Below are positions 32,030-48,559 of a stretch of DNA of 64,000 bases, piece after piece. The stretch's first letter is position 1. Every line of letters begins with the position of its first letter. The translations under genes and the position numbers were made by a program. Source of the stretch: Jatrophihabitans sp. (lineage in GTDB: Bacteria; Actinomycetota; Actinomycetes; Mycobacteriales; Jatrophihabitantaceae); assembly GCA_036389035.1 (NCBI GenBank), contig DASVQQ010000040.1, positions 1-64,000 on the forward strand, given 5' to 3'. The notes under the pieces were generated by a model. It was not told the origin of the DNA, did no database searches, and saw only the letters and a program-made list of their open reading frames with translations.

Positions 32030-32101
32030 CCAACTCCCTCCCGCGTTCTTCTCCTGCGCATGCTCGCCGCGACGCACTCGCGGCCGGCCCGAGCTAAGGC
32101 G

Positions 32102-32677
32102 TCAGACGTTGACGCCGTAGTCCCGGGCGATACCGGCCAGGCCTGAGGTGTAACCCTGGCCGACCGCGCGGAACTTCCATTCCGCACCGCTGCGGTACAG
32201 CTCGCCGAAGACCATCGCGGTCTCGGTCGAGGCGTCCTCGGACAGGTCATAGCGCGCCAGCTCGCTGCCGTCGGCCTGGTTCACCACCCGGATGAAGGCG
32301 TTGCGGACCTGGCCGAAGGACTGGCCGCCGGCCTCGGCGTTGTAGATCGAGACCGGGAAGACGATCTTGTCGATCTCGGCGGGAGCTCCGGCCAGGTTGA
32401 CCTTGACCTGCTCGTCGTCGCCCTCGCCCTCACCGGTCAGGTTGTCGCCGGTGTGCTCGACGGCGCCTTCCGGGCTGGAGAGGTTGTTGAAGAAGATGAA
32501 GTGCTTGTCGGAGAGGACCTTGCCATTGGCACCGCAAGCGATCGCGCTGGCATCGAGGTCGAAGTCCTGGCCGTCGGTGGTGCGGGCGTCCCAACCCAGG
32601 CCGACCGTGACCGCGGTCAGACCGGGGGCTGCCTTGGTGAGCGAGACGTTGCCGCCTTTGGTGAGACTGACTCCCAC
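32102..32677 (-). CDS. terD: TerD family protein (canonical, tandem paralogue)
   Basis: 191 residues starting at GTG 32677, 6 nt after GGAG, giving [15 protein letters not shown]. It has [12 protein letters not shown] and [15 protein letters not shown] calcium motifs and [20 protein letters not shown]. It differs from its neighbour mainly in the C-terminal third and in surface residues. It is separated from the AIM24 gene by about 200 bp and probably has its own promoter at the head of the TerC-TelA group. Confidence 0.95.
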
Positions 32678-32873
32678 GTGAAACTCCAGGTGACTAGAGG
32701 AAGGCCGCATGACCTTCGTCGCGGATCTTCGCCGCCCGGTGCGGGCGACATATGTTCATGCTAGGCGAGACGATTAAGGCACCTGACAAGTTCCACCCAG
32801 GTGTGGCGGCTGTTAGGTGGTGGGCGTTCGAAAATCGTTAAGAAGCTGCCTGTCAACTGCTCGCGGGTCGGGC

Positions 32874-33677
32874 TCAGCTGGTGCTGCCGGAGAACAGCCC
32901 GCCCATCCCGGCCCCGGTTTTGCGGTCCCCCGCGCCCATGTTCTTGGCCAGCGCCTTGGCCAGCCCGTCGATGGTCAGCGACTGCAGGATCACCGAGCCG
33001 TTGCCGCTCAGAGTGGCCAGGTTCATTCCCTCGCCACCGAACATCGCGTTCATCACACCGGCCTTGTTCAGCGAGCCGACCCGCTCGATGCCGTAGGTGA
33101 TCCGGTCGTCCCAGGCGACCACGCAACCGGTGTCGACCTTGAGCCGGCCACCGTAGTCGGCCGGGTTGATGTCGATGAAGTTGCCGGCGCCGGCGATGAT
33201 CAGGCTGCCCAGGCCGGTGAACTTCTCCAGCACGAAGCCCTCGCCGCCGGCGAAACCCTGCCGCATGCCCGAGAACGCGATGTCGAAGTGCACCCCGGCT
33301 TCGGCGGCGACGAAGGCGTCCTTCTCGGCGAACCAGGTGGTCCGGCCGTCCAGTTCGAGCACCCGCATCTCACCGGGCAGCACTCCGGCCAGGGCCAGCA
33401 GGCCGTCGCCGCCGGCCGTGTTGAAGTGGCAGAACGCGAACGACTCACCGGCCAGCACCCGCTTGCCGACGTCCATCGCGCCGCGCAGCATGCCGCCCAG
33501 GCCACCGGCGGCCGCGGGCTGGCCGGCAGCCGCGGGCGCGGTCAGCTTGGTCTCCATCGTCACGTCGGCCGAGCTGAACAAGAACTTGCCCGCCTCGCTG
33601 TAGATGGTCTGGCCCGGCCGAAGCTGGACCAGCGCCATCTGCATGACGTTGCCGCTGAGCTGGACGTCGAGGGTCAT
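32874..33677 (-). CDS. AIM24-family (TIGR00266-type) protein
   Basis: 267 residues after an excellent AAGGAGG. Beta-rich AIM24 domain features are GQTIYSEAGKFLFSS, the Gly-rich hinge AGGLGGMLRGAMDVGKR, and GAGNFIDINPADYGGRLKVDTGCVVAWDD. The C-terminus ends in a Gly-rich tail. The biochemical role of bacterial members is unknown; they often sit beside Ter genes in actinobacteria. It heads the minus-strand cluster and is divergent from the PspC gene. Confidence 0.88.
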   Translation of the reverse strand: MTLDVQLSGNVMQMALVQLRPGQTIYSEAGKFLFSSADVTMETKLTAPAAAGQPAAAGGLGGMLRGAMDVGKRVLAGESFAFCHFNTAGGDGLLALAGVLPGEMRVLELDGRTTWFAEKDAFVAAEAGVHFDIAFSGMRQGFAGGEGFVLEKFTGLGSLIIAGAGNFIDINPADYGGRLKVDTGCVVAWDDRITYGIERVGSLNKAGVMNAMFGGEGMNLATLSGNGSVILQSLTIDGLAKALAKNMGAGDRKTGAGMGGLFSGSTS

Positions 33678-33922
33678 TCCGATTTCCTCCTTGAAGGCAG
33701 TGCCGTGTCGCTCCCTTCACGGTAGGCGGCCCTCCTAAGGCCTCCCACAGGGAAGTGCCTGAGCTGACCCTGATCGGCTTACCGCGCGGTGCGGGTAAAG
33801 ATCAGGGCCGATCCCGACGCCACGGAGGCCGCATGGGGGCGATGCTTACACCTGACGCCGCACCGGGCGGCGCAGGCCCAGACTGCCGCAGAAAGCACCG
33901 TACGAAGAGGAGCACACATCTC

Positions 33923-34180
33923 ATGGGGTCCATCCAAGAGCGTTTCCGTAGCCAGGGGTTGTCGCGCCCACGTGAGGGACGCATCCTCGGCGGGGTGTGC
34001 GCGGGGCTCGGTCAGCGATTAGGCATCGCCCCCTGGCCGGCCCGCTGGCTGTTCCTGATCGTCCTGCTCGTGGCGCCGGGCAGTCAGCTGATCGTCTACC
34101 CCATCCTTTGGATCCTGATGCCGCCGGCCGAGCCGGGCTACCCCGGCACGACGCAGACGGACTTCCGGCCGCCTGCCTGA
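33923..34180 (+). CDS. Small PspC-domain membrane protein
   Basis: 85 residues from ATG 33923 (GAGGAG lies about 11 nt upstream). The PspC pattern RILGGVCAGLGQRLGI is followed by one membrane helix, WLFLIVLLVAPGSQLIVYPILWILM. PspC-type proteins act in envelope stress responses. It is divergent from the AIM24 gene across a 245-bp gap. Confidence 0.85.
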   Translation: MGSIQERFRSQGLSRPREGRILGGVCAGLGQRLGIAPWPARWLFLIVLLVAPGSQLIVYPILWILMPPAEPGYPGTTQTDFRPPA

Positions 34181-34218
34181 GCAGTCGGCCCCCGTCAGCT
34201 CCCGATCGGGCTCGGGTT

Positions 34219-34462
34219 GCTGGGCGGCTCAGTTTGCTGGCCGGCTCAGGTTGCTGGCCGGCCGACGCGTATCGATATCGACCGTCCTGGCGAGCGAATT
34301 CAATACGGGTCGGACGCGGCGCCAGGGTTGCTGGCGGCTCAGGTTGCTGGCCGGCCGACGCGTAGCGATATCGACCGTCCTGGCGAGCGAATTCGATACG
34401 GGTCGGACGCGGCGCTCTGGTTGCTAGCCGACTCTGGTTGCCGACCGGCTCAGTTGCTGATC
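34219..34462. repeat. 93-bp direct repeat with long hairpin, inside TCAGGTTGCTGG micro-repeats
   Basis: Two nearly identical 93-bp units (about 34243-34335 and 34336-34428). Each holds an imperfect palindrome with 19-nt arms, 34262-34280 with 34295-34313 and 34355-34373 with 34388-34406. TCAG(G)TTGCTGGCC boxes at 34229, 34246, 34339 and 34450 flank them. The last is the complement of the stop of the adjacent small gene. The 270-bp region has no gene. Confidence 0.85.
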
Positions 34463-34809
34463 AGGCGCTCGGCGTGCGCGAGCTCGTCGGGGCCGGGTTC
34501 GGCGGCCTCGCTGCGCAGCAGCTGCCAGCGGGCGGTGGCCCCGTCCGGGCGGCTCTGCTCGCCGGTGCGCAGCGCCTGCTCGATCAGGCGACGGACCTCG
34601 GGCTCCTGATCGGGCTCGGCCGCGAACAGGGTTCGCACCCGCACCGTCTCACCGTCGCGCTGGGCCTGGGAGTGGTGCGGTGCCAGCGGGCAGGGCGGCT
34701 CGTGCTCCCAGTGCCCGCACAGCGCGACGGTGATCGCCGCTCCTACGGCGGCCGGGTCATCGCCGACGGGCATGCTCAGCTCGGCGCTGTGAGCGAAGGC
34801 CTGGCGCAT
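34450..34809 (-). CDS. Small conserved-type hypothetical protein
   Basis: 119 residues from ATG 34809; the frame continues upstream into the next gene but that part is a shadow. It contains ALCGHWEHEPPCPLAPHH, a Cys/His-rich stretch that could hold a metal, and a helical C-terminus EPDQEPEVRRLIEQALRTGE. No family recognised. It lies 53 bp after the end of the propeller-like gene on the same strand. Confidence 0.6.
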   Translation of the reverse strand: MRQAFAHSAELSMPVGDDPAAVGAAITVALCGHWEHEPPCPLAPHHSQAQRDGETVRVRTLFAAEPDQEPEVRRLIEQALRTGEQSRPDGATARWQLLRSEAAEPGPDELAHAERLISN

Positions 34810-34861
34810 GCGGGCGAGTGTGCCGGGCGCGGTGGCTGGTCGGCAACTAATCGGCGGCCGA

Positions 34862-36097
34862 CTACCGGGCGGGCCGCAGAACGAGTTGGCTGAGTTCGGG
34901 CAAGGACACTCCCAAGCCGCCGACGGTTCCGGTCTCGCGGTTGATGACCGCGAGCGTCTTGTCGGCGGTGACGGCGAATACCAGGGCGCTGTCCGGTGAG
35001 AAAGCGATGCCTCCTCCGTCATAGGACTCCATATGCAGGGACACCTTGAGGGCGCGCCGGTTTCCCGAGGCGAGGTTGATCAACTCCAGCCCGAGCCTTC
35101 CGCTGGGGTCGAAGGTCATCATGGCCGCGGTCGCCCCGTCGGGTGAGATCACTCCACGCGGGCTGCGGATCGGTATCGCGGCGTTCACGGTCTGCCGTGA
35201 GCCGTCGACCCGGCCGATCAGCACGGTCTGGCAGCGATACCGGTCATCGCATTCGGCCACCAGCCAGCCCGTCGGACCCACCGCCAGCAACGCCCCGGTG
35301 CTGATCCGGCGCAGGCCGTCGGGTCCAGCGGTGTACACCCCGCCGACGCCGGAGACCAGGAGTCCACCCGCGCCGTCGGCAACCACTTCATAAGCCGCAC
35401 TGTCCGGCGGCATCGGGAGGGATCCGGCGAGCTTGCCGCCATCCAAGGTGGTCAGCGCCATCACCGGCTGGCTGTCACCGGACCTCATCCACATCTGGTT
35501 GGGAGCGGGTCCGGGAAATACCCAGCCGTCCTTGTCGAGCACGGGCAACTCGCGGGACGGCTTGCCGTCCGGCACGAGATAGCCCGGCGCCCTGTCCAAC
35601 GGCTGGATGAGCACCTGGTCCGCACCTGCCAGCAGGCTGACGAAGCCCTGATCACTGCGCGAGCCGGGGACCGTGGTGCGGGTGATCCGGCCGGCGGCTA
35701 ACTCGATGCGCACCAGCACCTCGTCACCGCGGGCGATCAGCTCCCAGCCGGTGGTGGCGCCGAGCAGCGGCCGGCCCAGCCGGGTGACCGACACCGCAGG
35801 CAGGGTTGACGTGTGCGCCGGCGGCGCGACGGTGAACGCGGGTGCGGTCGGGCTCGGTGCCGGCGTGGTCGGCGCAGATGTCGGCGATGTCGTCGGCAAG
35901 GTGCTCACCCGCGCTGTCGACTGGGTGGCCCGTTCCCGATTCAGCACCGAGAGCACGAGTGCGACGACCGCGAGGACGACCGCCGCCGTGAACCACCTCG
36001 GCCATGGACGTCGCGGCGGAGCCGTCCCACCGGGCGCGCCATCGGAGCCGACATCGAGCCAGTCGATGTCGTCGGAGTACGGGTCCCCTCGGCTCAC
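34862..36097 (-). CDS. Membrane-anchored propeller-like protein, copy 1
   Basis: 411 residues from GTG 36097. A cytosolic N-terminus with DIDWLDVG is followed by one membrane helix (about 36-57), a Thr/Pro/Ser-rich linker, and an exported beta-rich domain. Repeating motifs such as GGVYTAGPDGLRRISTG, GVISPDGATAAMMT and GIAFSPDSALVFAVT resemble propeller blades. Function is unknown. It is a clear paralogue of the gene at 36232-37446, which shares ECDDR-RCQ and LGRPLLGATTGWEL blocks. Confidence 0.75.
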   Translation of the reverse strand: MSRGDPYSDDIDWLDVGSDGAPGGTAPPRRPWPRWFTAAVVLAVVALVLSVLNRERATQSTARVSTLPTTSPTSAPTTPAPSPTAPAFTVAPPAHTSTLPAVSVTRLGRPLLGATTGWELIARGDEVLVRIELAAGRITRTTVPGSRSDQGFVSLLAGADQVLIQPLDRAPGYLVPDGKPSRELPVLDKDGWVFPGPAPNQMWMRSGDSQPVMALTTLDGGKLAGSLPMPPDSAAYEVVADGAGGLLVSGVGGVYTAGPDGLRRISTGALLAVGPTGWLVAECDDRYRCQTVLIGRVDGSRQTVNAAIPIRSPRGVISPDGATAAMMTFDPSGRLGLELINLASGNRRALKVSLHMESYDGGGIAFSPDSALVFAVTADKTLAVINRETGTVGGLGVSLPELSQLVLRPAR

Positions 36098-36176
36098 GCC
36101 TCATTGTGGACCCGCGTGAGGTGGATCGGCGTGCGTATCGGCCATACGGTTTGTAACAAATGGTGCGGCGATCACT

Positions 36177-36212
36177 GCGCCTGTAGTCAGCACCGCGCCT
36201 GTAGTCAGCACC
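36177..36212. repeat. 18-bp tandem repeat, two copies
   Basis: GCGCCTGTAGTCAGCACC at 36177-36194 and 36195-36212, followed by a partial copy. It lies in the 134-bp gap between the two propeller-like paralogues. Confidence 0.9.
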
Positions 36213-36231
36213 GCGCCCGTCGGCACTACAG

Positions 36232-37446
36232 CTAGCGGGCGGGCCGCAGGACGAGCTGGCTGAGCGGCGGCAGCGGCACGCCCAGGCTGCCCACGGCCGC
36301 GGTCTTGCGGTTGATCACCGAGAGCGTGCCGTCCACGGTGACGGCGAGCAACCAGTTGCTGTCCGGTGAGAAGGCGATTGCGCCCTCGTAGGACTGATTG
36401 ACCGAGACGTTGAGAACCCGCCGGTTCCCGGTGGCGAGGTCGAGCAACTGCAGCCCGATAGCGCCGTTGCGGGCCGAGGTCAGCATGGCCGCGGTCGCCC
36501 CGTCGGGGGAGATCACCCCGCGCTGCTGCCGGCCGGTTATCGCGGCGTTCACGACCCGCCGGGAGCCGTCGCGGCGATCGATCACCACCGACTGGCAGCG
36601 GTGCCGGTCATCGCATTCGGTGACCAGCCACCCGGTCGGGCCGACCGCCACCAGAGAGCCGGTGCTGATCCGTCGCAGGCCGTCGGGCCGGGCGTTGTAG
36701 ACCCCGCCGATACCGGGAAACAGCAGGTAGCCCGCGCCGTCGGCGGTCGCGTCGAAGGAGAGGTTCTCCGAGGGGATCGGAATGAACTCGGCGAGCCTGC
36801 TGCCGTCCAGCTCCATCAGCGCCATCACCGGCTGGTGGTCATCGCTGGGCCGTGCCCACATCTGGTCGGGGCGCGGTCCCGGATACACCGGGCCGTCGTG
36901 CTCGAGCAGCGCCGGCAGCTCACGTGCCGGCCGGCCGTCGGGCACCAGGTAGCCCGGCACCTTGTCCAGCGGGCGGATGAGCACCTGGTCCTCGCCTGCC
37001 AGCAGGTACACCGGGCCGCCGCTGAGCAAGGTGGGAATGGCGGTGCGGGTGATCCGGCCGGTGGCCGGCTCGATGCGCACCAGCACCCTGTCACCGCGGG
37101 CGACCAGCTCCCAGCCGGTGGTGGCGCCGAGCAACGGCCGGCCCAGCCGGGTGACCGACACGGCCGGCCCGGCAGGTCGCGGCGCCGAGGTGGTGGGCGT
37201 CCGAGGGCCGGCCTGGGTCGAGGAGGACGTCGGAGTGGTCGGAGCGGCGCTCCCCCGGGCCGCCGACGGGGTGCCGCCCCGTTCGTAGTTCAGCGCCGCG
37301 ACCACCAGCGCGGCGGCGAGCGCGACCACCGTCAAGGTGAACCATCTGGGCCATGGCCGCCGGGGCGGGGTCATCTCACCGGGCGCGCCGTCAGGGCCGA
37401 CATCGAGCCAGTCGATGTCGTCGGGATGCGCGTCGTCTCGGCCCAC
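36232..37446 (-). CDS. Membrane-anchored propeller-like protein, copy 2
   Basis: 404 residues from GTG 37446, with the same layout as copy 1: N-terminal DIDWLDVGPDGAPGEM, one membrane helix (about 36-58), Thr/Ser-rich linker, and blade-like repeats GGVYNARPDGLRRISTG and AIAFSPDSNWLLAVT. Two Cys in ECDDRHRCQ are conserved in both copies and may form a disulfide in the exported domain. The pair arose by tandem duplication with the stalk diverging most. Confidence 0.75.
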   Translation of the reverse strand: MGRDDAHPDDIDWLDVGPDGAPGEMTPPRRPWPRWFTLTVVALAAALVVAALNYERGGTPSAARGSAAPTTPTSSSTQAGPRTPTTSAPRPAGPAVSVTRLGRPLLGATTGWELVARGDRVLVRIEPATGRITRTAIPTLLSGGPVYLLAGEDQVLIRPLDKVPGYLVPDGRPARELPALLEHDGPVYPGPRPDQMWARPSDDHQPVMALMELDGSRLAEFIPIPSENLSFDATADGAGYLLFPGIGGVYNARPDGLRRISTGSLVAVGPTGWLVTECDDRHRCQSVVIDRRDGSRRVVNAAITGRQQRGVISPDGATAAMLTSARNGAIGLQLLDLATGNRRVLNVSVNQSYEGAIAFSPDSNWLLAVTVDGTLSVINRKTAAVGSLGVPLPPLSQLVLRPAR

Positions 37447-37680
37447 GCCTCATTCTGGACCCGCACGGCGGATCTCAGGTTGCGAATCGGTATCCCAACC
37501 GACGCCACAGCTGCGGCGACCCGGCCGGTACGTCTGCAGGGCGTCGGTCGTGCACACGGCATATGCAGGCGTGCGCTCTTACACCGCCGATGCCGCCGGT
37601 CTATGACCTAGGCAATTCAGCGCCTTGTCGGCGCGGTCGGGTGCCGTCCACCCTCGCCAGGAACGAGAGGGAGAGAGACC

Positions 37681-39438
37681 ATGACTGCTGTTACAGCATC
37701 GCCTACAGCATCGCCATCGCCGTTGCGCGGCCTGTGGCAGCGCGAGTTGCCGGAGTACCCGACCGGCGCCAGGCGCATCTTCTACCTCGCGATTGTCTTC
37801 ACCGCGACAGTCATGGTGTATTACCAGAACTTTCTCGCTGGGGCAGTCACACTGCAGCTTCTCGGTGACTTCGACGTCACTTTCTTGTACTTCGCCAGCG
37901 TCACGGCATTGTCGAACGCTGTCGGCGCCATCGGCTCCCTGGCGTCCGGCGTCGCCGACAAGGTGGGACGCGGCAACATGGCGGTCGTCGGCCTGATCGG
38001 CGTCACCCTGGTGACGCTGCTATGGGTGCCCAACGTGACGACCGGCTTTCAATACGCGATCGTTCTGAGCGTTGGCGGGATTTTCGAGGGCATCATCCTG
38101 GTCGTCACGCCGGCGTTGGTGCGTGACTTCAGCCCCCAGGTCGGTCGCGCCCAGGCCATGGCCTTCTGGACGATGACGCCGGTGCTGGGCAGCCTTCTGG
38201 TCGCCATGGTCTCCAGCAACACCCTCGACAGCCACCCGGACTGGCAGTTCCAGTTCAAAGTCGCAGGCTGGGTCGGCGTGGTCGTCAGCGTGCTGGCCCT
38301 GCTGTTCCTGCGCGAGCTCAACAGCGCCGACCGCGACCGCATCGTCGGCGCGCTCGAGGCCAAGACCGCAGCGGCGCTGAACAGCCGCGGGCTGTCGCAC
38401 GAAGAGGCCACCCGCCACCCGTACCGGCAGATGGTCCGGCTCGACATCGTCGGCCCGGCAGTCGGCATCAGCGTTTTCCTGCTCATGTACTTCACCGCCG
38501 TCGGGGCTCTTCCGGTGTACTTCCAGACCAACCTCAACTTCACCGCCAGTGAGTCGAACTCCCTGTTGAACTGGCTGTGGGCCACCGCGGCGGTGTCCAT
38601 GCTCGTTTTCGGGGTGCTGTCGGACAAGCTGCGCGTCCGCAAGCCGCTCATCGTCGCCGGCGCCCTGGTCACCGTCGCGGTCGACATCGTGTTCCTGTCG
38701 AAGGCCGACTCCTCACCGACCTTCTCCACCATCGCGATCCTGCTGGCGCTCATGGGCCTATGCCTGGGTGCTGTATGGGTGCCGTGGATGGCTGCCTTCA
38801 CCGAGACCGTCGAGCATCGCAACCCCGCCCTGTCGGCCACCGGCCTGGCCATCTGGGGTTGGACCCTGCGCTTGTTCCTCGCCGGCGCGATCGTCACGAT
38901 CCCGTTGATCGTCTCGGCTGTCACGCCCATCGTCGACGACGGCCCTTCCGTGGGTCAGGCGCGAGCCTACTTCGCGAAGAGCCAACCCCTGCAACTGCTG
39001 CTGGCCCAGGCGCAGGCGCACCCCAAGGTGTTCAGCGACCTCGGCGCGTCGCCGAAGGACCCGGCAGTGCGACAGAAGGCGATCGAGACCGTCGGCGCGC
39101 CAACACTGGCTACGTTGGCCGGTGACCCGATCGCACAGCGAAATCTCGCCCTGATCGCCGAAAAGGTGCCAGGCCTGCTCAAGGCGCGGGCCGACAGCCC
39201 GGGCCAGTGGCAAGCCTGGTTCTGGATCTGCACCATCGGGGCACTGGCCCTCTGCCCGCTCACGCTGCTGCTCAGGGGCTCGTGGCGCCCGCAACCCACC
39301 GACGATGCCCACGCCACAGAACACGCTCTCGAACTGGCCAACCGCAGCGCCCATCCCGATGCGCATCCGGTGGGGGCGGCTCCGCTCCACCTGCCGGAGC
39401 ACGCCGCTGTTCGCCAGCAGCCCGACGCAAGGGCTTGA
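37681..39438 (+). CDS. MFS transporter with unusual insert before the last helices
   Basis: 585 residues, larger than a usual 400-450-residue MFS member. GAGAGGGAGAGAGACC precedes the ATG. The first half has the loop 2-3 motif GVADKVGRGN, and the second half has SDKLRVRKPL in the equivalent place. About 12 helices are visible. Residues 425-510, between helices 11 and 12, form a long soluble insert (SVGQARAYFAKSQPLQ onwards), and the C-terminus is a His/Pro-rich tail. Substrate unknown. The selenoprotein gene starts 86 bp downstream on the same strand. The 234 bp upstream hold no recognisable site. Confidence 0.85.
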   Translation: MTAVTASPTASPSPLRGLWQRELPEYPTGARRIFYLAIVFTATVMVYYQNFLAGAVTLQLLGDFDVTFLYFASVTALSNAVGAIGSLASGVADKVGRGNMAVVGLIGVTLVTLLWVPNVTTGFQYAIVLSVGGIFEGIILVVTPALVRDFSPQVGRAQAMAFWTMTPVLGSLLVAMVSSNTLDSHPDWQFQFKVAGWVGVVVSVLALLFLRELNSADRDRIVGALEAKTAAALNSRGLSHEEATRHPYRQMVRLDIVGPAVGISVFLLMYFTAVGALPVYFQTNLNFTASESNSLLNWLWATAAVSMLVFGVLSDKLRVRKPLIVAGALVTVAVDIVFLSKADSSPTFSTIAILLALMGLCLGAVWVPWMAAFTETVEHRNPALSATGLAIWGWTLRLFLAGAIVTIPLIVSAVTPIVDDGPSVGQARAYFAKSQPLQLLLAQAQAHPKVFSDLGASPKDPAVRQKAIETVGAPTLATLAGDPIAQRNLALIAEKVPGLLKARADSPGQWQAWFWICTIGALALCPLTLLLRGSWRPQPTDDAHATEHALELANRSAHPDAHPVGAAPLHLPEHAAVRQQPDARA

Positions 39439-39524
39439 CGACGCCGACCAGGACGTGATGAGCACTGGGACGGTAGCTTCTAACCAACGCTGATGACGAT
39501 CAGCGATCAATGCGGGGTGACGGT

Positions 39525-40562
39525 ATGGCATATCTACGGGTGATCGGCAAGCAGGAGGCGGACGGCGACCTCCTCGAGGCGTACTCAGCGATGGCTGCCC
39601 GTCCGATGCCACCCGTATACCTGCCGGATCACGGTGACGCGGCTGGGATCATCCGAGCGCACTCTCTTGATTCAGAGTTGCTGCGACGCACGTTCGCGGT
39701 CTCGGGCTCGCTGAGCAACGACGCGCTTCCCTGGCGCTCCCGGGAGCTGCTCAACTCGGTGACTTCCCGCGAGAATGAGTGCTTCTATTGAACGACCGCT
39801 CACGCAGAGTTTCTGCGTGTAGCCAGCGGCGACGACACCGTCAGCCGCCGCATCGTCCTGGGGCAGGCGTTCGACGAGCTCTCACCTCAGGATGCCTGCC
39901 TGGTGGATTTCGCTCAGACCTTGACGGCTCGCCCGTGGGCGATCGGCCCTGTCGATATTCGACGGCTGTCCGAAGAGGGTCTGTCGCGGACCTCGATAGT
40001 GGTCGCCATCGGGCTGGTAGCCATGTTCAACTACCTGACTCGGGTAGCCGACGGCACCGGAATCGAGGCGGACTACGGCAACGAGCTTCCCCGGTTCGTC
40101 TATCGCGGCCTCACGGAATCGGCCCCGAGGCCCGGACCGGAAGAGTGGCCGCCCGTCGACGGCTCACTTGAGCTCCTGTCTGCCCTACCTGACGTGCAGG
40201 CAGCTTGGCACCGCTGGCGTGACTACGTAGCAGAGGGTCCTGGCCCGCTATCTTCGGCGACGCTGAGCCGGCTCCGACGGATAGCGGCTCGCAACGCGTG
40301 CGACGGCGCCATAGCTGCCCTTGACCAGGCCGATTCACTAACTGCTGCCGAGAGCACCGCAGGGTCGGGCGACACATTGTCGGAGTTCGCGGACAAGCTG
40401 AGTCTCACACCATGGCTCATGGCTCAAGCCGATGTGGACGCTCTGCGCTCGATCGGCATGGATGACCTTTCGATCCTCCACGTCATCGCCGTTGTCGCCT
40501 ATCAATCAGCTGAGTCGCGGTTGCGCATCGGGCTTTCTGCCCTCGCCAGGTCCGGAGACTAA
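39525..40562 (+). CDS. Two-domain AhpD/CMD-family selenoprotein with in-frame TGA (Sec89)
   Basis: 345 residues if TGA at 39789-39791 is read as selenocysteine. Start ATG 39525 follows GGGGTG; ATG 39510 is also in frame. The N-terminal domain matches peroxidase-related AhpD-like enzymes. WRSRELLNSVTSRENEC(86)-F-Y-U(89)-T-T-A-H(93) aligns with the family's CxxC-x3-H redox motif. The frame continues without any break after the TGA through VDFAQTLTARPWAIG and FNYLTRVADGTGIEAD to TAA 40562. A second, degenerate CMD repeat follows, with a single C259 in NACDGA. The family reduces peroxides or serves as disulfide reductase. The alternative reading is a pseudogene with a nonsense mutation exactly at that codon. 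Confidence 0.8.
39801..39819 (+). promoter_or_regulatory. Candidate bacterial SECIS element
   Basis: Perfect 8-bp stem CACGCAGA / TCTGCGTG (39801-39808 and 39812-39819) with loop GTT. Seventeen nucleotides separate the TGA from the loop, and the loop starts with G. Both agree with the general description of bacterial SECIS hairpins (spacing about 16-37 nt, G in the first two loop positions). It lies inside the coding sequence, as expected for bacteria. Confidence 0.75.
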
Positions 40563-40623
40563 TCATTTTTTTCAGCCACCCGACTGCTAACAGCACGCCT
40601 TAACCCACTCACGCGGAAATCGC

Positions 40624-40659
40624 AGGAACGGCGCTCAGGAGATCCTGAGCGCCGTTCCT
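40624..40659 (-). terminator. Terminator hairpin downstream of ssrA
   Basis: Perfect 17-bp inverted repeat, AGGAACGGCGCTCAGGA (40624-40640) with its complement at 40643-40659, 2-nt loop. It lies 14 bp past the encoded CCA end of the minus-strand tmRNA and may also stop transcription of the plus-strand selenoprotein gene. Confidence 0.8.
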
Positions 40660-40672
40660 GTTGAGCTACTAC

Positions 40673-41048
40673 TGGTGGAGGTGCCGGGAATCGAACCCGG
40701 GTCCTTCGTCGCTTTGATGGGTCTTCTCCGGGCGCAGTGTGCGGTGTCTCTACTCGGCCTCACCGATCACGCACACAAGTCGGTGTGACAGGCCCAGTCG
40801 CTGTGAGTTGTCCCGAACTCCCCCGCGACCGGGGAGTTCGGTAAGCCACCTAGCTGATGCCAGGATCCGGGCCGGTGACGAACCCGGGCTGACAGACTCG
40901 TTTCGCTACTTAGGCAGCGAGAACGAAGTCAGCGCGATTGGAATCGGCGCTTATTTTGTTTTGCATCGCTTTTTTAACGAGGTCAGCAATGCGGTCCTCG
41001 GCCCGCTTCCCCTCATCTCAACGTCCGAAGTCGAGACCATTCACCCCC
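40673..41048 (-). ncRNA. ssrA: tmRNA (SsrA)
   Basis: 376 nt. The 5' end GGGGGTG pairs with 3' CACCTCC, followed by encoded ACCA. The T-arm GGGTTCGATTCCCGG is intact. The tag coding part (complement of 40913-40948, stop TAA at 40910-40912) reads ADSNRADFVLAA, close to mycobacterial ADSHQRDYALAA. It rescues stalled ribosomes with SmpB, encoded 3 kb away on the same strand. A 174-bp upstream gap separates it from the CYTH-CHAD gene. Confidence 0.97.
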
Positions 41049-41222
41049 TTCTGGGCGTTGTGCGCCCGTCACACTGCCCAACGCGGTGAGCGTCCGGCAG
41101 ATTCCATCATGCCATGACCGGCCCCGCCGCCCCGGTTGAATTGCTGCCCTGACCGCCTGTGACCCCCGGGCACTCGAAAGGAACTACCGTGCACTGACAC
41201 GCCAGGCTGTACAACTACACCC

Positions 41223-42698
41223 GTGGCCGATACCCATCGCGAGATCGAGACCAAGTTCGACGTGGCCCCCGACTTCACGCTCGGGGACCTGGCCGAGTTC
41301 GCCGGCCCGGGCGCCAGCGTGCAGAGCCGCACCGTGAACCTGTCCAGCGCCTATTACGACACCGCCGAGAACGACCTGCTGCGCTCGCGCCTGACCCTTC
41401 GCCGGCGCATCGGCGACACTGACACCGGCTGGCATCTCAAGGTCCCCGGGGTGGGCTTCCGCACCGAGCTGCACTGGCCACTGCCCGGCAACGACGAGCC
41501 GCCCGAGGAGTTGCGCAACCTGATCTGGCCGTTCGCCGGCCAGGACGAGCTGGTGCGGACCATCACCCTCAACACCACCCGGACGTCCCACCGGATCACC
41601 GCCCCGGACGGCCGGCTGGTGTTCGAACTGGCCGACGACGAGGTCCGGGTGAGTTCGGAAGGGGCGCCGGTGGCGGTGTCGCGCTGGCGCGAGCTCGAGG
41701 TGGAACTCGGCCAGGCCGGCAGCACCGCGGACCTCAACCGGGCGACCAGGCTGCTGCTGGCCCGCGGCGCCTTCGTCTCACGCTCGGGATCGAAGCTGCA
41801 ACGCGCGATGGGCTGCCCCGACGATCCGGCCATCAGCAGCGCCGCGACCACCCTGACCAGCTACCTGCGCGCCCAGTGCGACGCCCTCACCGCCGGCCAC
41901 TTCGCCATCTCGGTCAAGCCGTTCGAGGCCAGCGCGACCAGCCCGCCGCACGAGGCCATTCACCAGACCCGGGTCGCGACCCGGCGGTTGCGGGCCGCGC
42001 TGCGGATCTTCGCGCCGCTGTTCGACGCCGAGCCGGCCACCCGGCTGCAGGACGAGCTGGCCTGGTTCGCCGCCGAGCTGGGCGAGGTGCGCGATCGCGA
42101 GGTGCTGCGCAGCCGGCTGGCTCGCGCGGTCGATGACCTGCCCGCCTACCTGGTGGTCGGCCCGGTCGCCCGGCGGATCGACGACGTGCTGCTCACCGAA
42201 TTGCGCCAGCACGCCGGCGCGCTGCTGGACACCATGCGCGACGAGCGCTACCGGGTGCTGGTTCGCGACCTGGCCCGCTGGCGCGAGCAGCCCCCCTTCA
42301 CCCCGGAGGCGGCCGGCCCGCCCAGCGTGCTGACCGAGTACGTCGACGCGGCCGAGCGCAAGCTCGGCAAGCGGATGAAGCGCGCCGCCGGCAACCACAC
42401 CCCGGCCGAGCAGCTGCACCAGGCCCGCAAGGCCGGCAAGCGAGCCCGCTACGCCGCCGAGGCGGCCGCTCCGGCGCTGGGCAAGCGCGCCAGCGCGGTA
42501 GCCAAGCGGGCATCGCGGCTGCAGACGTTGCTCGGCGAGCACCAGGACGCGATCGTGGCCACCGAGGTGCTGCGCCGGATCGCTGACCAGGTGGCCGACG
42601 AGGGCGAGAACGCCTTCACCTACGGCATCCTGGTGGCCGACCAGCGCCGCATCGCCACGACCTCGGCGCAGGCCGCCCGGGCCAGCACCGGCACCTGA
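41223..42698 (+). CDS. CYTH and CHAD domain protein
   Basis: 491 residues from GTG 41223. The CYTH triphosphate-tunnel domain (about 1-200) has the EIETK motif at residues 7-11 and YYDTAENDLLRSRLTLRRR. The CHAD domain (about 220-480) has the conserved helix HEAIHQTRVATRRLRAALR and a second HQARKAGKRARYAAE. These fused proteins bind or hydrolyse polyphosphate or triphosphates in the families studied. It is divergent from ssrA and convergent with the GNAT gene. Confidence 0.92.
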   Translation: MADTHREIETKFDVAPDFTLGDLAEFAGPGASVQSRTVNLSSAYYDTAENDLLRSRLTLRRRIGDTDTGWHLKVPGVGFRTELHWPLPGNDEPPEELRNLIWPFAGQDELVRTITLNTTRTSHRITAPDGRLVFELADDEVRVSSEGAPVAVSRWRELEVELGQAGSTADLNRATRLLLARGAFVSRSGSKLQRAMGCPDDPAISSAATTLTSYLRAQCDALTAGHFAISVKPFEASATSPPHEAIHQTRVATRRLRAALRIFAPLFDAEPATRLQDELAWFAAELGEVRDREVLRSRLARAVDDLPAYLVVGPVARRIDDVLLTELRQHAGALLDTMRDERYRVLVRDLARWREQPPFTPEAAGPPSVLTEYVDAAERKLGKRMKRAAGNHTPAEQLHQARKAGKRARYAAEAAAPALGKRASAVAKRASRLQTLLGEHQDAIVATEVLRRIADQVADEGENAFTYGILVADQRRIATTSAQAARASTGT

Positions 42699-42721
42699 CC
42701 CGGCCTACCCGAGCCGGCCGC

Positions 42722-42801
42722 GCGGGCCGGTAAGGGCTGGCGCGCGAGCCGGTCAGGGCTGGCGCACGGGCCGGTCAGGGCTGGCGGCCACCGATCAGGG
42801 C
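42722..42801. repeat. 22-bp tandem array at the GNAT stop
   Basis: Units with core GGCCGGTCAGGGCTGGCG; TAAGGG/TCAGGG starts at 42731, 42753, 42775 and 42795. The last is the complement of the minus-strand GNAT stop (TGA). Confidence 0.88.
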
Positions 42802-43754
42802 TTGGGGGCCGGCTCCAGCCGTCCGTAATGGGCGATCACCCGGTCCAGCTGAAATCCCAGCGAGGCGTACAAGGCGCCGGCGCCCGAGCCGTTCTCCGAG
42901 TCGACGTCCAGGCACGCCGTGGTGTAGCCCTGCTCGGCCATCGCCCGCACCGACGCCGCCAGGCAGGCCCGGGCCAGCCCGCGGCCTCGGGATCGCTGCC
43001 GGGTGCCCACCAGCGCGACCCAGGCCTCACCGTCCACCCACTGGTTGACCAGCACGTAGGCCTGCACGTCGCCGTCGGAGTCCAGGCTGACGAACGAGCA
43101 GTCCGGCCGGAACGTCCGGGAGCCGACCTGGCTGGCCCACGAGTCGGCATCGCGCTCGATGGCGCCCCAGTGGGTGCTGAAGGCGTCGTTGTGGGCGAGC
43201 CGGACGGCCTCGGCCAGCTCGGCCGAGTACCGCCGCACCGGCAGCTCCGGCGGCGGTGGCAGCACGCCGGGGATCGGCCGGCTCAGCTCCTGGAAGTAGC
43301 GCACGATCTGATAGCCGCGGCGCTCCAGCATGGGGCGCACCGAGGCCCCCTCGATGCCGCCGGGAACCCGCAGCATCACCGGCGCGCCCGGATGCCGCTG
43401 GCCGGTCAGCTCCAGGGCCCGGGCCTCCATCCGGTCCATGATCTCGGCGCCCAGCCCCTGTCTGCGGAACTCCGGCCGGACCCCGCCGTAGATCTCGGCC
43501 CGGGCCTGGCCCTCGAACAGCCCGGACGCGACCCGCAGCTGCCCGAAGCCGACCAGTACGCCATCGCGCCACACTGCCACCGTGTCCAGCTGCGGGTCGA
43601 CGCCTGGCTCGGTCAGCTCCTCGGCCAGCGCCTCGGGCTCGTAGAACTCCTCGGTGCCGTCCGCCACGGCCAGCAGGTTGGTCAGTTCGGCCCAGGCGGT
43701 CACCGTCTCGACGCTCAACGGCTGCCATCGCACGGTTGTCACTGACACCCTCAC
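42795..43754 (-). CDS. Tandem GNAT-domain acetyltransferase
   Basis: 319 residues with two GNAT folds. The first has EIYGGVRPEFRRQGLGAEIMD and the second has VGTRQRSRGRGLARACLAASV; both carry the acetyl-CoA pyrophosphate loop R-x-x-G-x-G/A pattern. The two-domain layout resembles mycothiol synthase and related actinobacterial enzymes, but substrate is not proven. GTG 43754, 43748 and 43742 are all in frame; 43742 has GAGG at the best distance. Acts in the cytosol. Confidence 0.85.
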   Translation of the reverse strand: MRVSVTTVRWQPLSVETVTAWAELTNLLAVADGTEEFYEPEALAEELTEPGVDPQLDTVAVWRDGVLVGFGQLRVASGLFEGQARAEIYGGVRPEFRRQGLGAEIMDRMEARALELTGQRHPGAPVMLRVPGGIEGASVRPMLERRGYQIVRYFQELSRPIPGVLPPPPELPVRRYSAELAEAVRLAHNDAFSTHWGAIERDADSWASQVGSRTFRPDCSFVSLDSDGDVQAYVLVNQWVDGEAWVALVGTRQRSRGRGLARACLAASVRAMAEQGYTTACLDVDSENGSGAGALYASLGFQLDRVIAHYGRLEPAPKP

Positions 43755-43937
43755 ACCTCACAAATCCATCAACGCCGCGCCGTTGTGCCATAGCACCTGC
43801 CTCAACCAATCATCGCCGAAGCCCCACTCCAGCAGCGACTGAATTTGGCTGGCGTAGCACAGCAACCCCAGCGGCCTCAGGAACCCCAGCGACTCAGAAA
43901 CTCTCAGCGGCGCTGCCGGCCGGAGCGCCGGCGTCCA

Positions 43938-44438
43938 TCAGTCGGTTCTGCCCTTGGCGCGCCGGCCCAGCACCCGGCTGATCTCGCGGTCGGCGTCACG
44001 CTTGGCCATGTCCTGGCGCTTGTCGTAGGTCTTCTTGCCCTTGGCCAGGGCGAGCTCGACCTTCACCTTGCCCTCGACGAAATACAGCGACAGCGGCACC
44101 AGGGTCAGCCCGGACTCCTTGATCTTGCCGATCAGCCGCAGGATCTCGCCCTTGTGCAGCAGCAGCTTGCGGACCCGGCGCGGGGTGTGGTTGGTCCAGG
44201 ACCCGAAGGCGTACTCGGGGATGTGCACGTTGTGCAGGTAGACCTCGCCGTCGTCGATGGTGGCGAAGCCGTCGATCAGCGAGGCCCGACCCAGCCGCAG
44301 CGACTTGACCTCGGTGCCCATCAGCACGATGCCGCACTCGAAGGTGTCCACGATCAGGAAGTCGTGCCGGGCCTTCTTGTTCTGCGCGATGATCTTGCGG
44401 ACCGGGCGGTTGGAGGACTGTGCGGTTGCGGCGGCCAT
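43938..44438 (-). CDS. smpB: SsrA-binding protein SmpB
   Basis: 166 residues of OB-fold RNA-binding protein that delivers alanyl-tmRNA to stalled ribosomes. Marks are [37 protein letters not shown], and the basic C-terminal tail [20 protein letters not shown]. ftsX lies 10 bp upstream on the same strand and ssrA 2.9 kb downstream, the common actinobacterial order with the GNAT and CYTH-CHAD genes inserted. Confidence 0.97.
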
Positions 44439-44448
44439 GAGGAGAAAG

Positions 44449-45366
44449 CTACAGCCGGACGTAGAGGCGCAGGGTCAGCCAGGCAGTGGCCGCGGCCAGG
44501 ATCACGCCGGCGATCAGGCCCACCCCGCCGGCCAGGATGATGTCGTTGGCCGAGATCGGCTGCAAAATCCGAGACTTCACCTGATCACCGAGCAAACCGT
44601 CCAAGAAGACCACCTTGGCCACCCAGTTGCCCACCATCGCCAGGATCGCTCCGACCACCGCCGCCAGCATCGCCTCGATCACGAACGGCAGCTGGGTCAT
44701 CCAGCGCGAGGCCCCGACCAGGCGCATGATGCCGGTCTCGTTGCGCCGCTGCTGGGCCGCGGTCTGGATGGTGTTGGCCATCTGCAGCAGCGCGCAGATC
44801 AGCACCACGAAGAACATCACGAACGAACCCACCCGGCCGGTGTCGAACAGCCGCAGCATGGTCTTGAGGCTGACGTCCTGATTCTGGATCTGCTCGACGC
44901 CGGCGACGTTGGCGTAGCGGGAGGCCACCGGCACGTAGTCGGCCTTGAGATCGCGCAACTTGACCGTGAACGACGCCGGGATCGCCCCCGGCCCGGCTTC
45001 GTCGACCACCTTCTCACCGAGGCGCTGCTTGGCGATCTGGGTGGCCTGGGCCTCGGTGAGGTACTGCACGTCGGTGATCTGCGGATCGGCTTTCAGCTTC
45101 GCCTCCAGCGCCACCCGCTCGGCGTTGGTCACCTTCTGCTTGCAGTTGGATCCCGGGCTCTGCTTCGAGGTCTCGGTGCAGAGGTAGATCGAGACGTTGA
45201 TCTTGTCCTTGTAGGCCGCCTGGGTCTTGGCGATCTCCTTGTTGATCAGCAGCGCCCCGCCCAGGAAGAACAGCGCGATCGCGGTGGACAGGATCAGCGC
45301 GATGGTCATGCTGGCATTGCGCCGCAGCCCGGTCGCGACTCCGGACATGAGATAGCTAGCGCGCAT
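44449..45366 (-). CDS. ftsX: Cell division protein FtsX
   Basis: 305 residues. One N-terminal membrane helix ([20 protein letters not shown]), an extracellular domain with two Cys (YLC and SNCKQK), and three C-terminal helices of the FtsX domain including [18 protein letters not shown]. FtsEX couples ATP binding to peptidoglycan hydrolase activation at the division site. ATG 45366 is 10 nt from GGAG; ATG 45375 is too close. It follows ftsE by 75 bp. Confidence 0.95.
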
Positions 45367-45441
45367 GGGCTTCATACTCCGATCGGTGTTCGCTCAGCAG
45401 GAGCCACTGGCGCTGCGGGGTGAGCTTGGCGGCCAACCGAC

Positions 45442-46131
45442 TCAGCGGCCGATTCCGTAGACGCCGCGGTTCTGGTCGCGGACGACGTGGCCCAGTTCGA
45501 GTTCGATCACCCGGCGGCGCATGGCGTCGACGATGTTGTTGTCATGGGTGGCCATCACCACCGTGGTGCCCTTGCGATTGATCCGCTCCAGCAGGCCCAT
45601 GATGCCCTGGCTGGTGTCCGGGTCCAGGTTTCCGGTCGGCTCGTCGGCCAGCAGCACCAGCGGCCGGTTGACGAACGCCCGGGCGATCGCGACCCGCTGC
45701 TGCTCGCCGCCGGACAGCTCGTTCGGATAGCGGTGCGCCTTGCCCTGCAGGCCCACCATCTCCAGCACCTCGGGGACCGAGCGGGTGATCGCGCGCTGGG
45801 ACTTGTTGATCACTTCCAGGGCGAAGGCGACGTTTTCGAAGACGGTCTTCTTCTCCAGCAGCCGGAAGTCCTGGAAGACGCAGCCGATCCCGCGGCGCAG
45901 CTCAGGAACCTTGCGCGCGGGCAGCTTGGCGATGTCCTTGCCGTTGACGATGACGCTGCCCTTGGTGGGCACGTCCTCGCGCAGCAGCAACCGCAGCACC
46001 GAGGACTTGCCCGAGCCCGAGGCGCCGATCAGGAAGACGAACTCGCCCTTGTCGATGTCGAGGGAAACGTCGTCCAGGGCTGGGCGGGTGCTGGCGGCGT
46101 AGATCTTGGTGACGTTCTGGAGCGCGATCAC
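45442..46131 (-). CDS. ftsE: Cell division ATP-binding protein FtsE
   Basis: 229 residues from GTG 46131. Walker [10 protein letters not shown] near residue 36, Q-loop [16 protein letters not shown] typical of FtsE, signature [14 protein letters not shown], Walker [12 protein letters not shown], and H-loop ATHD. Soluble partner of FtsX at the septum. The gene is followed downstream by ftsX, smpB and ssrA on the same strand. Confidence 0.96.
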
Positions 46132-46204
46132 GGGGGATGATCCTACCTTGGCAGGACTGGCCGCCCGGTTTAGCGCGATTGCGGGTCGTGGGTCAGTTTC
46201 AGCG

Positions 46205-47020
46205 TTATGCCGAGCGCAGGCGTGCGGTGGTCCGGTAAGCGGCCGGGCTGAGCGGCCGGTTGAACCTCTCCGGGGTGGCGCCGGGCGGGTGCTCGTCGAA
46301 CAGCATCAGCAGGACCGGCGGGTCCAGCAGGCACCTCGGACGCAGCCAGATGTCAGCTTCGGCGACGGCGCCGCTCTGCACCGAGACCAGTCCGTGGGTT
46401 CCCACCGCGCCGGCCTGTCCCCACTCCGCGTAGGCCTCGACGGACCGCCTCGACTGGGGACCGGTGCACGCCATCACGTACCACTCACCTTCGGGCACGT
46501 TCGGCAGGACGTAGCTGTCGCCGCTCTCGACGAAGGTGAAGCTGACCGGTCGGCCTTCGAGGATCCGCTTGGGGAAGGCGCCGACGAAGGTGTGCGACGG
46601 TGACGCGGGCGGGTCGTACCGCAGGCGCCCGGTGATGGTGCCTGCCGCCCGGTCCGAGGAGGGGTTGTCGAACAGCACGTGCGGAATCACGTTGTTGTGG
46701 CGGCGGTAGTGCGACGGTGACAGGCCGACGCTCTTGCTGAACCGGGTGCTGAAGGTGCCGACGCTGCTGTAGCCCACCAGGACGCTGATGTCAGCGACGT
46801 TCCACCTGGTGGACACCAGCAGTTGCTTCGCCTTCTGCAGCCGCAATGCCGACAGGAACCGGCCCGGAGAAACACCGGTGACCTCTTGAAAGATCCTGGT
46901 GAAATGAAACTTGCTGAACATCGCCGAGTTTGCCATGTCATCAATGGTGAAATAGTCACCGAGATTCTCGTGCATCATACGAATAGCGCGTTCTGCCGCG
47001 AGCTTGGTCGTGGACGCCAT
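46205..47020 (-). CDS. AraC-family regulator with N-terminal DNA-binding domain
   Basis: 271 residues from ATG 47020, 6 nt after GAGGGGG. The AraC double helix-turn-helix is at residues 8-108 ([21 protein letters not shown] and [21 protein letters not shown]). This placement is the reverse of most AraC proteins. The C-terminal ~160 residues include [22 protein letters not shown] and may be a beta-sandwich ligand domain; I do not recognise it. No target is apparent. Confidence 0.83.
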
Positions 47021-47521
47021 TGATCGCCCCCTCGGGGTTCTGGGTAGTAGCCGGGCAGCGGCAAGTGCCGGAGTGCAGACCTCCGGGCAAGCCGAAAACA
47101 TGGTGGGACGCGATCGCGATCACGCTGACCAACGTGGCTGGTCAGGGATTGGCTTTATATCTTCGACATATCCGTGAATGCGATGAGACGATGGTGGCAC
47201 CTCGCCGCGGTTCGCGACTCTCCGACAGTGCGCGCCTGAAAGTCAGCTCGGTCTCACTCTTCGATAGTGCGCAGCCGGCGGCTGCTCGACAGCTACGGTG
47301 ACTCCGCCGCATGCTGCTGGCACCCCGAAAGTCATCGCGGCGTCCTCATTGCCGGAACGGGGAGCACGTCACGAGTTGGCCTCGGCAATAGATTGTCGTG
47401 ACGATATGACGCGGGGTCCGGTCATGGCCGGAAAGAAGCCGCCCGACGGCTCCACATTGCAGGCCGATCACTATTTCTCGGTGCGGGCGGCAATTCGGCC
47501 GCGTTAGCGCATTATCCTTTT
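47021..47521. promoter_or_regulatory. Gene-free 500-bp region upstream of AraC and lipoprotein genes
   Basis: The two short frames here lack start signals and coding character. It holds an AT-richer block CTTTATATCTTCGACATATCC (47149-47170). It also holds a direct repeat CGACAGTGCGC / CGATAGTGCGC (near 47222 and 47262). These could be regulator sites, but nothing is certain. Confidence 0.4.
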
Positions 47522-48559
47522 ATGAGACTTCGCACGACGGTCGTGACCGCACTGTCGCTGTGCCTGGTGGCGACCGGGTGCGCCGGCGCGCAGACCGCCC
47601 GATCCGGCGCGAGCGGCTCGCCGCAGGCCGCGTCCGGCGCCCCCTCGTCCGCTGCCCCGGACTACGAAGCCCAGTACCGGGCCGGACGCGCGGACGCCGA
47701 GAGTGCGGCCCGGAAGCTGCTCGCGCTGGCTGAGGTCCCGCCGGGCTCGGTGGAGCTCGCGACGGCTCCGGCTGCCCTGTCCGGCCCGGCGCTGGGCTCG
47801 ACCGTGGCCCCCACCAACGTCGACCTGGCCAGGTACTGGCGGGTGCCGTTGTCGTTCCCGGCACTCGATGCCTACGTCAAGCAGCACCCACCGGCCGGCT
47901 TGTCGCAGTCGGGCAACATGAGCCGGGGTTCCGGGACCCCTTACACGACCCTCGGCTACAGCTGGCATGGCGCCGGCGGTTCATCGTCCAACGGTGAGCT
48001 GCACATCGGGCTGGCCGCGATCGGCGACGCGTCGGCGGCCGGTAAGGCGAGCTACCTGCGGGTCGACGCCCTCACCTCGTGGCTGGACCCGCGCCCGCGA
48101 CCCGACAAGGCCGTCGGCGCGCGGATGCGGATCGAGGCCGGTGACCGCTGCCCCGCTGAGAACAAGGACATGGTCGGCGTCCGCAACGAAGGCAAGGACC
48201 TCGACCACAACCTGGCGCCGGCCGACAAGCCGAACGCCGGACTGCTGTGCTCCTACGCCGGCATGTACGGCGACGCCTTGGCGCTGTCGCTCGAGCGCGT
48301 CCTGACGGCCGCCGACGCCGCCCGCATCGCCGAGGCCGCGCACCGGGTGTCGCTCAGCCACTACGACGCCCTGCACACAAGTCTTGGGATGCGCGACCGC
48401 TCGGTGACCGTGCTGGTGCTGCAGTATCCGAACCGCCCGGCAGTGAACCTCTGGCTTCCCTCGACCAGCCGTAGTGTGACGTCGAACGGTCATATCGTCG
48501 CGACGGACCTGCTCAGCCTCGGCAAGCTGCGCGATGTCGTGAACCAGCTCAGCCGGTGA
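47522..48559 (+). CDS. Putative lipoprotein of unknown function
   Basis: 345 residues. The N-terminal signal MRLRTTVVTALSLCLVATGC has a lipobox with Cys20, then a Ser/Ala/Gly-rich linker. The exported domain contains two further Cys (DRCPAENKD and LLCSYAGMYG), which may pair. No family recognised. No ribosome-binding site precedes the ATG, so the transcript may be leaderless or near so. The TGA stop sits in a 16-bp tandem repeat. Confidence 0.75.
   Translation: MRLRTTVVTALSLCLVATGCAGAQTARSGASGSPQAASGAPSSAAPDYEAQYRAGRADAESAARKLLALAEVPPGSVELATAPAALSGPALGSTVAPTNVDLARYWRVPLSFPALDAYVKQHPPAGLSQSGNMSRGSGTPYTTLGYSWHGAGGSSSNGELHIGLAAIGDASAAGKASYLRVDALTSWLDPRPRPDKAVGARMRIEAGDRCPAENKDMVGVRNEGKDLDHNLAPADKPNAGLLCSYAGMYGDALALSLERVLTAADAARIAEAAHRVSLSHYDALHTSLGMRDRSVTVLVLQYPNRPAVNLWLPSTSRSVTSNGHIVATDLLSLGKLRDVVNQLSR

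Follow-up and report, generated by a model that had tools for sequence, protein, structure and literature searches.

The proton relay of AhpD in M. tuberculosis consists of Glu118, Cys130, His132, Cys133, and His137, and the AhpD-like protein PA0269 has a corresponding set of Glu36, Cys48, Tyr50, Cys51, and His55 (PMC3141380). In the protein YP_296737.1 of R. eutropha (PDB 2PRR), the catalytic residues are E74, C86, Y88, C89, and H93 (PMC4674687). Selenocysteine (Sec) forms of this site are also known, and AhpD-like (TIGR01926/COG2128), CMD-like, and NF041238 selenoproteins with a CxxU motif are listed in several sources (PMC1088965; PMC1794560; PMC2398784; PMC9312934; PMC13188914). The original prediction for the locus described here had mentioned AhpD-like selenoproteins from marine metagenomes, and CxxU forms are indeed catalogued from the Sargasso Sea and GOS. 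Two AhpD-like repeats in one chain are described for the sestrins (PA26, Sesn-A/Sesn-C), in which the N-terminal repeat is catalytic and the C-terminal repeat is without the redox motif (PMC4674687).

The gene at 39525-40562 of the window (the whole 64,000-nt stretch of DNA that was analysed) combines a Sec codon in the first AhpD-like repeat with a second, degenerate repeat. Comparison with its relatives indicates that it is very probably a genuine selenoprotein gene with an AhpD-like redox site, with Sec insertion itself deduced from the sequence.

Gene structure and active site

The predicted selenoprotein CDS (39525..40562, + strand) encodes 345 residues including Sec89 and ends with a TAA at 40560-40562, in agreement with a five-way alignment of full-length genes. 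The frame is open over all 345 codons if TGA is read as a residue, and its lone interruption is the in-frame TGA at 39789..39791 (+), the candidate Sec codon 89, after which 256 codons follow in the same frame. This codon occupies the second redox position of the AhpD/"peroxidase-related" site, C86-F-Y-U89-T-T-A-H93. A sole interruption by TGA 39789, placed at the second Cys of CxxC-x3-H with 256 codons beyond it, had been predicted, and recomputation of the coordinates and counts gave the same values. The gene has the features by which bacterial selenoproteins are recognized, namely an in-frame UGA at a functional redox position and a frame that is conserved beyond it. The start at 39525 is favoured over a longer start at 39510, with M/V-A-Y/W found at the same place in 5/5 genes. 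Ordinary annotation would probably divide such a gene in two, giving a short ORF plus a fragment.

Relatives were searched for among 101 related genomes, 397 genomes of the order, 394 of the class, 396 of the phylum, and 240 of one family; the order, class, and phylum sets overlap, each includes the window's own genome, and scoring was limited to the top candidates in each genome. Five full-length genes were found in two families of the order, comprising the window gene, one from the same genus (G008; record JAVEEO010000386.1, a Pseudonocardiales MAG), and three from another family (G376, G1170, and G1142), the encoded proteins being 78% (G008), 50% (G376), 49% (G1170), and 48% (G1142) identical to the window protein. 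In all four orthologues codon 89 is TGA and is the only internal stop, the frame is otherwise uninterrupted, and the hairpin follows as in the window gene. Within the window's genus the gene was present in 2/9 genomes, several of the nine being incomplete.

The first repeat (residues 1-190; 39525..40094, +) is a predicted catalytic AhpD/peroxidase-related domain with matches to TIGR01926, CMD, and PDB 6k40. The window protein scores 121 bits against TIGR01926, above the cut-off of 81.8 (G008, 124 bits; G376, 113.3 bits), and 24.4 bits against CMD, where the threshold is 23; similarly, a three-way profile of this repeat matches 6k40 with an E value of 4e-19. The active-site codons (39744..39803, +) encode E74, C86, Y88, U89, and H93, which coincide in position with all five residues of the AhpD proton relay, are spaced as in AhpD and PA0269, and are invariant across the five genes. 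Since the relay residues keep AhpD spacing, with the same numbers in 2PRR and Cys at 89, Sec at the second position would be expected to be the reactive group.

The second repeat and predicted catalysis

Residues 202-345 (40128..40559, +) form a degenerate AhpD repeat. Alignment of residues 196-345 with residues 1-195 by hhalign gave probabilities of 92-93 and E values of 5.6e-7 and 3.4e-7 (one comparison each), residues 193-345 alone match TIGR01926 with an E value of 6.5e-9, and a five-way profile of residues 202-345 matches PDB 6k40 with an E value of 9e-11. These three lines of evidence bear out the predicted degenerate second CMD repeat and indicate that the C-terminal half is homologous to the AhpD domain, giving a two-repeat architecture. 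C259-D260 is invariant in the five genes, and the repeat has neither CxxC nor CxxU. Though inactive, it is constrained, with a dN/dS of 0.226 against G008 (residues 190-345). An AlphaFold model from a three-row alignment (the window, L063, and L064, where L063 is the G008 record) had a mean pLDDT of 37.4, too poor for use.

In the proposed mechanism, Sec89 would replace the second (C133-type) Cys of the AhpD CxxC in the first repeat and would be activated by E74, Y88, and H93 through the AhpD proton relay. Reduction of an organic or lipid hydroperoxide (or of a disulfide) would take place at the activated Sec89, C86 would then resolve the Sec as a selenenylsulfide, and a cellular thiol donor would reduce the selenenylsulfide. 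The second repeat has lost the redox pair; its most likely role would be that of the fixed partner in an AhpD-type pseudo-dimer, and it may also have a function in binding. Taken by itself, the peroxidase step, with a hydroperoxide as the presumed substrate and a thiol as the presumed reductant, is reasonably probable.

A selenoprotein that is not chiefly a peroxidase, acting instead as a disulfide reductase, an oxidant sensor, or a pathway-specific enzyme with a ligand or partner bound by the second repeat, is the strongest of the competing readings, yet it is rather unlikely. The weak peroxidase activity described for PA0269 and the additional adaptor role described for AhpD (PMC3141380) would suit it, as would the constraint on the inactive repeat; against it stand the conservation of the full AhpD proton-relay set and the lack of a conserved partner gene nearby that would hint at a pathway.

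Gene neighbourhood

The gene adjoins an MFS gene (37681-39438) in the window. The original prediction had pointed to this neighbour, which is real in the window but incidental, as no MFS relative was present near the other four full-length genes in the stretches read around each. When window positions 32001-48000 were compared with 12-14 kb around the gene in G376, G1170, and G1142, only the selenoprotein was shared (blastp E 1e-10, blastn 1e-8). In G008, a single homologue of the tandem pair at 34862-37446 is found on the corresponding side of the orthologue, and other genes replace the MFS gene. No operon partner is conserved in the stretches compared.

Several other features of the surrounding DNA were observed. 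The window contains tandem paralogous genes at 34862-36097 and 36232-37446 (-), one homologue of which lies near the G008 orthologue with different genes between, and two 93-nt tandem copies that are 94% identical at 34242-34427. Between the selenoprotein gene and a tmRNA gene (40673-41048, -) lies a perfect inverted repeat of 18 bp whose arms are separated by 2 nt (40623-40660), perhaps a shared terminator; a stem-plus-T-run scan gave no hit at 40623-40660, and neither promoters nor terminators were detected on scanning 39300-41100. With regard to possible integration at the tmRNA end, one 18-nt stretch beside the gene has no second copy within the window. The GC content of 40000-40999 is 0.617 compared with 0.66-0.75 in the other kilobases of 33000-45999, which may reflect a later arrival of the gene or merely the tmRNA.

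The predicted bSECIS hairpin

The predicted bSECIS hairpin (39801..39819, +) has a stem of eight Watson-Crick pairs (39801-39808/39812-39819) and a GUU loop (39809-39811), starts 9 nt past the TGA, and places the loop 17 nt from the TGA; the original description of a perfect 8-bp stem with a GTT loop at these distances was accurate in every element. The bSECIS model allows a loop of 3-9 nt with G in the first two loop positions, a stem of 4-16 bp, a spacing of 16-37 nt, and an MFE of ≤ -7.5 kcal/mol (PMC13188914), and the window hairpin (loop GUU, 8 bp, 17 nt, -20.6 kcal/mol) lies within all of these limits. The MFE of -20.6 kcal/mol was obtained for a 48-mer (z -2.86, with 2/200 shuffles equally good), and the fold of a 45-nt stretch was equalled or bettered by 10% of the 45-mers of the window. 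Under a criterion fixed after the window was seen (a stem of ≥7 pairs and a GT-containing loop of 3-5 nt located 14-22 nt downstream), a hairpin follows 9/1602 TGA triplets of the window, that of codon 89 included (7/774 on the + strand and 2/828 on the - strand), and 316/42636 background positions. The hairpin taken alone is uncommon and is neither decisive nor proof; it goes beyond chance because the TGA and the hairpin recur together in all five full-length genes.

The hairpin stretch reads CTCACGC[A/G]GAGTTTCTGCGTGT in all five genes. Among positions at which the residue is invariant in the five genes, codons 92-98 are identical in 6/7 cases vs 28/106 elsewhere (Fisher p 0.003), the stretch having been picked as the stem and after inspection of the pairwise alignments. 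The seventh of these codons is GCA or GCG, which swaps A-U for G-U and keeps the pairing. In addition, TTT-96 is the sole TTT of the gene in each of the five genes, and TTT-96 and CGT-98 are kept in 5/5 genes, while in eight neighbouring genes TTT accounts for 5/81 Phe codons and CGT for 5/236 Arg codons. The hairpin codons are unusually conserved, which points to constraint at the RNA level. Synonymous divergence from G008 is low over codons 84-110 (3/25 vs 83/229, p 0.014), a result that is not unique within the gene (any-window permutation p 0.60), and the corresponding test of codons 85-102 gave p 0.016 for the window gene and G376, p 0.014 for the window gene and G008, and p 0.11 for G008 and G376. 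Column-by-column covariation across eight Sec genes, in two rows of which the loop is shifted by 2 nt, gave nothing above shuffles.

Selenocysteine machinery

In the window's genome, which is 98.8% complete, SelA has a single match (329.5 bits), and SelB and tRNA-Sec each have a single match that exceeds the threshold (261 bits against a cut-off of 242 for SelB, and 68.0 bits against a gathering score of 47 for tRNA-Sec); a selD with a Cys active site was recognized by eye. A search for selA, selB, selD, and tRNA-Sec had been proposed as a check on the selenoprotein assignment, the absence of tRNA-Sec or SelB counting as refutation, and all four are present, clustered in the order selD(-), tRNA-Sec, selA, selB on one locus (L017; C7:50500-70000). 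With these components, the GUU-loop hairpin 17 nt downstream would recruit SelB and Sec-tRNA(Sec), and the ribosome would read UGA-89 as Sec.

Upstream of the Sec cluster, which is located at L017:8216-12619, a gene recognized by eye as fdhA-like contains a TGA in frame at L017:2930 (ENQARIU-HSATV), and 19 nt beyond that TGA there is a GUU-loop hairpin. Besides the window gene, the organism therefore possesses at least one selenoprotein gene of classical type with a hairpin of this kind.

Across the genomes with a full-length gene, SelA is present in 5/5, and tRNA-Sec lies beside selA in the window's genome, G008, G376, and G1170; in G1142, tRNA-Sec was not found within the 8 kb read around selA. 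Such co-occurrence is weak evidence because SelA is common in the order (64/101 genomes, the window's own included).

Conservation and selection before and after the TGA

The dN/dS against G008 is 0.113 before the TGA and 0.238 after it, and purifying selection is acting on either side of the codon. In G008, G376, G1170, and G1142, the gene ends at a TGA as its terminal stop, which means that recoding would be site-specific and that TGA still means stop there. A full-length version with Cys was not found, within the E limits used, among the genomes searched (relatives, order, class, phylum, and one family), and the family would so far consist of Sec members only (5/5). Two further scans of contigs used peptide patterns, of which 1/6 and 1/2, respectively, carried Cys for Sec and the rest lay near the window's own letters, and returned two sequences only, one being the G008 record and the other a Cys gene with a single repeat from a Myxococcales MAG; as the patterns are so close to the window's letters, distant orthologues would escape such scans. 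Among viral contigs no relative was confirmed, and of 97 matching plasmid records, none covers 80% of the query.

These patterns bear on whether the TGA is read through. Selenium-dependent partial termination is possible as a side product of Sec insertion. It is very improbable that the TGA simply terminates translation to give an 88-residue N-terminal product and a separately started C-terminal protein (e.g., from GTG 39903), with the hairpin in a regulatory role: ORFs at 39510-39791 and 39903-40562 do exist, but codons 90-126 would belong to neither product, yet they include the catalytic H93 and hold one of the most conserved stretches of the family (T-x-AHAEFLRVASGD, invariant in the five genes). 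Weakest is the reading of the TGA as a decayed TGC/TGT in a pseudogene, with a Cys gene altered by nonsense mutation or misread in sequencing, for although TGA is one base off the Cys codons and relatives of the first repeat with TGC at this codon are common, the same TGA in 5/5 full-length genes down to 48% identity, the selection after it without any frameshift, and the Sec machinery in the genome make this extremely improbable. An accidental nonsense mutation had been judged unlikely from the outset, and the proposed inspection of close relatives for unrelated stops or frameshifts showed none in the four full-length orthologues. Recoding of TGA-89 as Sec is the reading preferred here.

Sec and Cys in the first repeat across the phylum

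Alignment with Cys-containing homologues, another suggested check, recovered 59 rows of the domain with Cys at the UGA position, all found through the first repeat. A tree of the domain was built from 70 rows (11 Sec and 59 Cys) and has several long branches; it leaves out duplicates (L017, L018, L049-L053, L056, L058, L063, L065, and L066), the machinery loci L001-L016, loci without C-x-x-C/U-x3-H in an open frame (e.g., L024 and L030), the wrong-frame row L059_C_66, and the later-found G1170 and G1142. At least five Sec/Cys changes are needed on this tree, four to five on bootstrap trees, and the starred branches alone force three. Changes of this number imply that Sec was gained or lost several times at this codon, and point to several Sec/Cys switches in the phylum. 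The strict hairpin occurs in 6/11 Sec rows and 0/59 Cys rows of the same domain; it is absent from 5/11 Sec rows, and 4 of the 6 positive rows share one hairpin by sequence. The hairpin of L020 (from G099) is nearly letter-identical to that of the window, and L076 and L099 have dissimilar stems with GU loops at 19 nt.

A SelA match was present in 13/13 tested genomes with TGA seen at this codon, in G906 to part of the gene only (positions 1-94), and in 30 of the other 41 genomes of the same survey; G893, which carries an NF041238 gene, is outside the count of 13. In other genomes of the phylum, this codon is likewise TGA in the AhpD-like genes L072, L073, L074, L075, L076, L077, and L099, where the motif context is CHYU, CHCU, or CLFU, and the window's own genome has a second, stop-free relative of the first repeat with 28% identity (G000:C6:2367-2786).

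Comparison with known systems

The AhpD-like CxxU selenoproteins of TIGR01926/COG2128 from the Sargasso Sea and GOS, and MCB9421940.1 (PMC13188914), belong to the same family and likewise have Sec second in CxxU, the likeness to MCB9421940.1 being drawn from the catalogue description rather than from its sequence. Scores above the TIGR01926 cut-off were likewise obtained for the Sec relatives L020, L072, and L076. The other matches in the order, class, and phylum searches cover one repeat only and do not extend past about residue 220 of the query, whereas the window protein has the additional C-terminal degenerate repeat. Among the nearest solved structures to the first repeat are 2PRR, 6k40, and 3c1l (E 4e-19 to 4e-11); the catalytic residues of 2PRR carry the same numbers as those of the window protein, but all three proteins have Cys and a single repeat in place of Sec and two repeats.

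NF041238 (AhpD_rel_CFYUT, 'hypothetical protein 1' of the Sargasso Sea) shares with the window protein the CFYUT motif and a length of about 350 positions. The window protein scores 71.4 bits against this model (two orthologues, 69.7 and 80.2 bits), below the cut-off of 175. Its match starts at model position 218, and the Sec domain is C-terminal in NF041238 and in L102 and L103, whereas it is N-terminal in the window protein. NF041238 was found at four loci in 3/296 phylum genomes, with one TGA each, the TGA at CFYU being seen in L102 and L103, and the sequence past the TGA of L102 does not form the window's hairpin. No description of a two-repeat Sec form appeared among the matches listed in the literature, mostly non-subscription, on AhpD, carboxymuconolactone, NF041238, and actinobacterial selenoproteins. 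What looks new is the combination of Sec in the first repeat with an inactive second repeat in a family that is always Sec so far, CxxU AhpD-like proteins being already known; the originally suggested novelty of the two-domain version holds for the two-repeat form and not for the CxxU site, which is catalogued, nor for the length, which NF041238 approaches. The gene adds a selenoprotein to the actinomycetes, with one orthologue in a named Pseudonocardiales MAG; genomes with Sec synthase are common in this order, and a Sec-only family (5/5 so far) raises the question of why Cys does not suffice.

The layout of the window protein resembles that of the sestrins in its two AhpD-like repeats per chain, of which the N-terminal one is catalytic and the C-terminal one is without the redox motif. 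In the sestrins the first Cys is retained and Leu occupies the second position (PMC4674687), where the window protein has Sec. Against PA26/Sestrin (PF04636), the window protein scores 20.0 bits, below the gathering score of 29.4, the second repeat matches Sestrin-2 chains weakly and below threshold (E 0.04-0.08), and nothing bearing on leucine sensing or a DD motif was seen in the comparison. It may be speculated, with a low chance of being right, that the gene encodes a Sec-based bacterial counterpart of the sestrin layout, in which an obligate-Sec first repeat and an inactive sensing or partner-binding second repeat would combine peroxide reduction and signalling in one chain, spread horizontally as a stand-alone gene among Sec-decoding actinomycetes. 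The fused inactive repeat offers a testable link to the sestrin layout.
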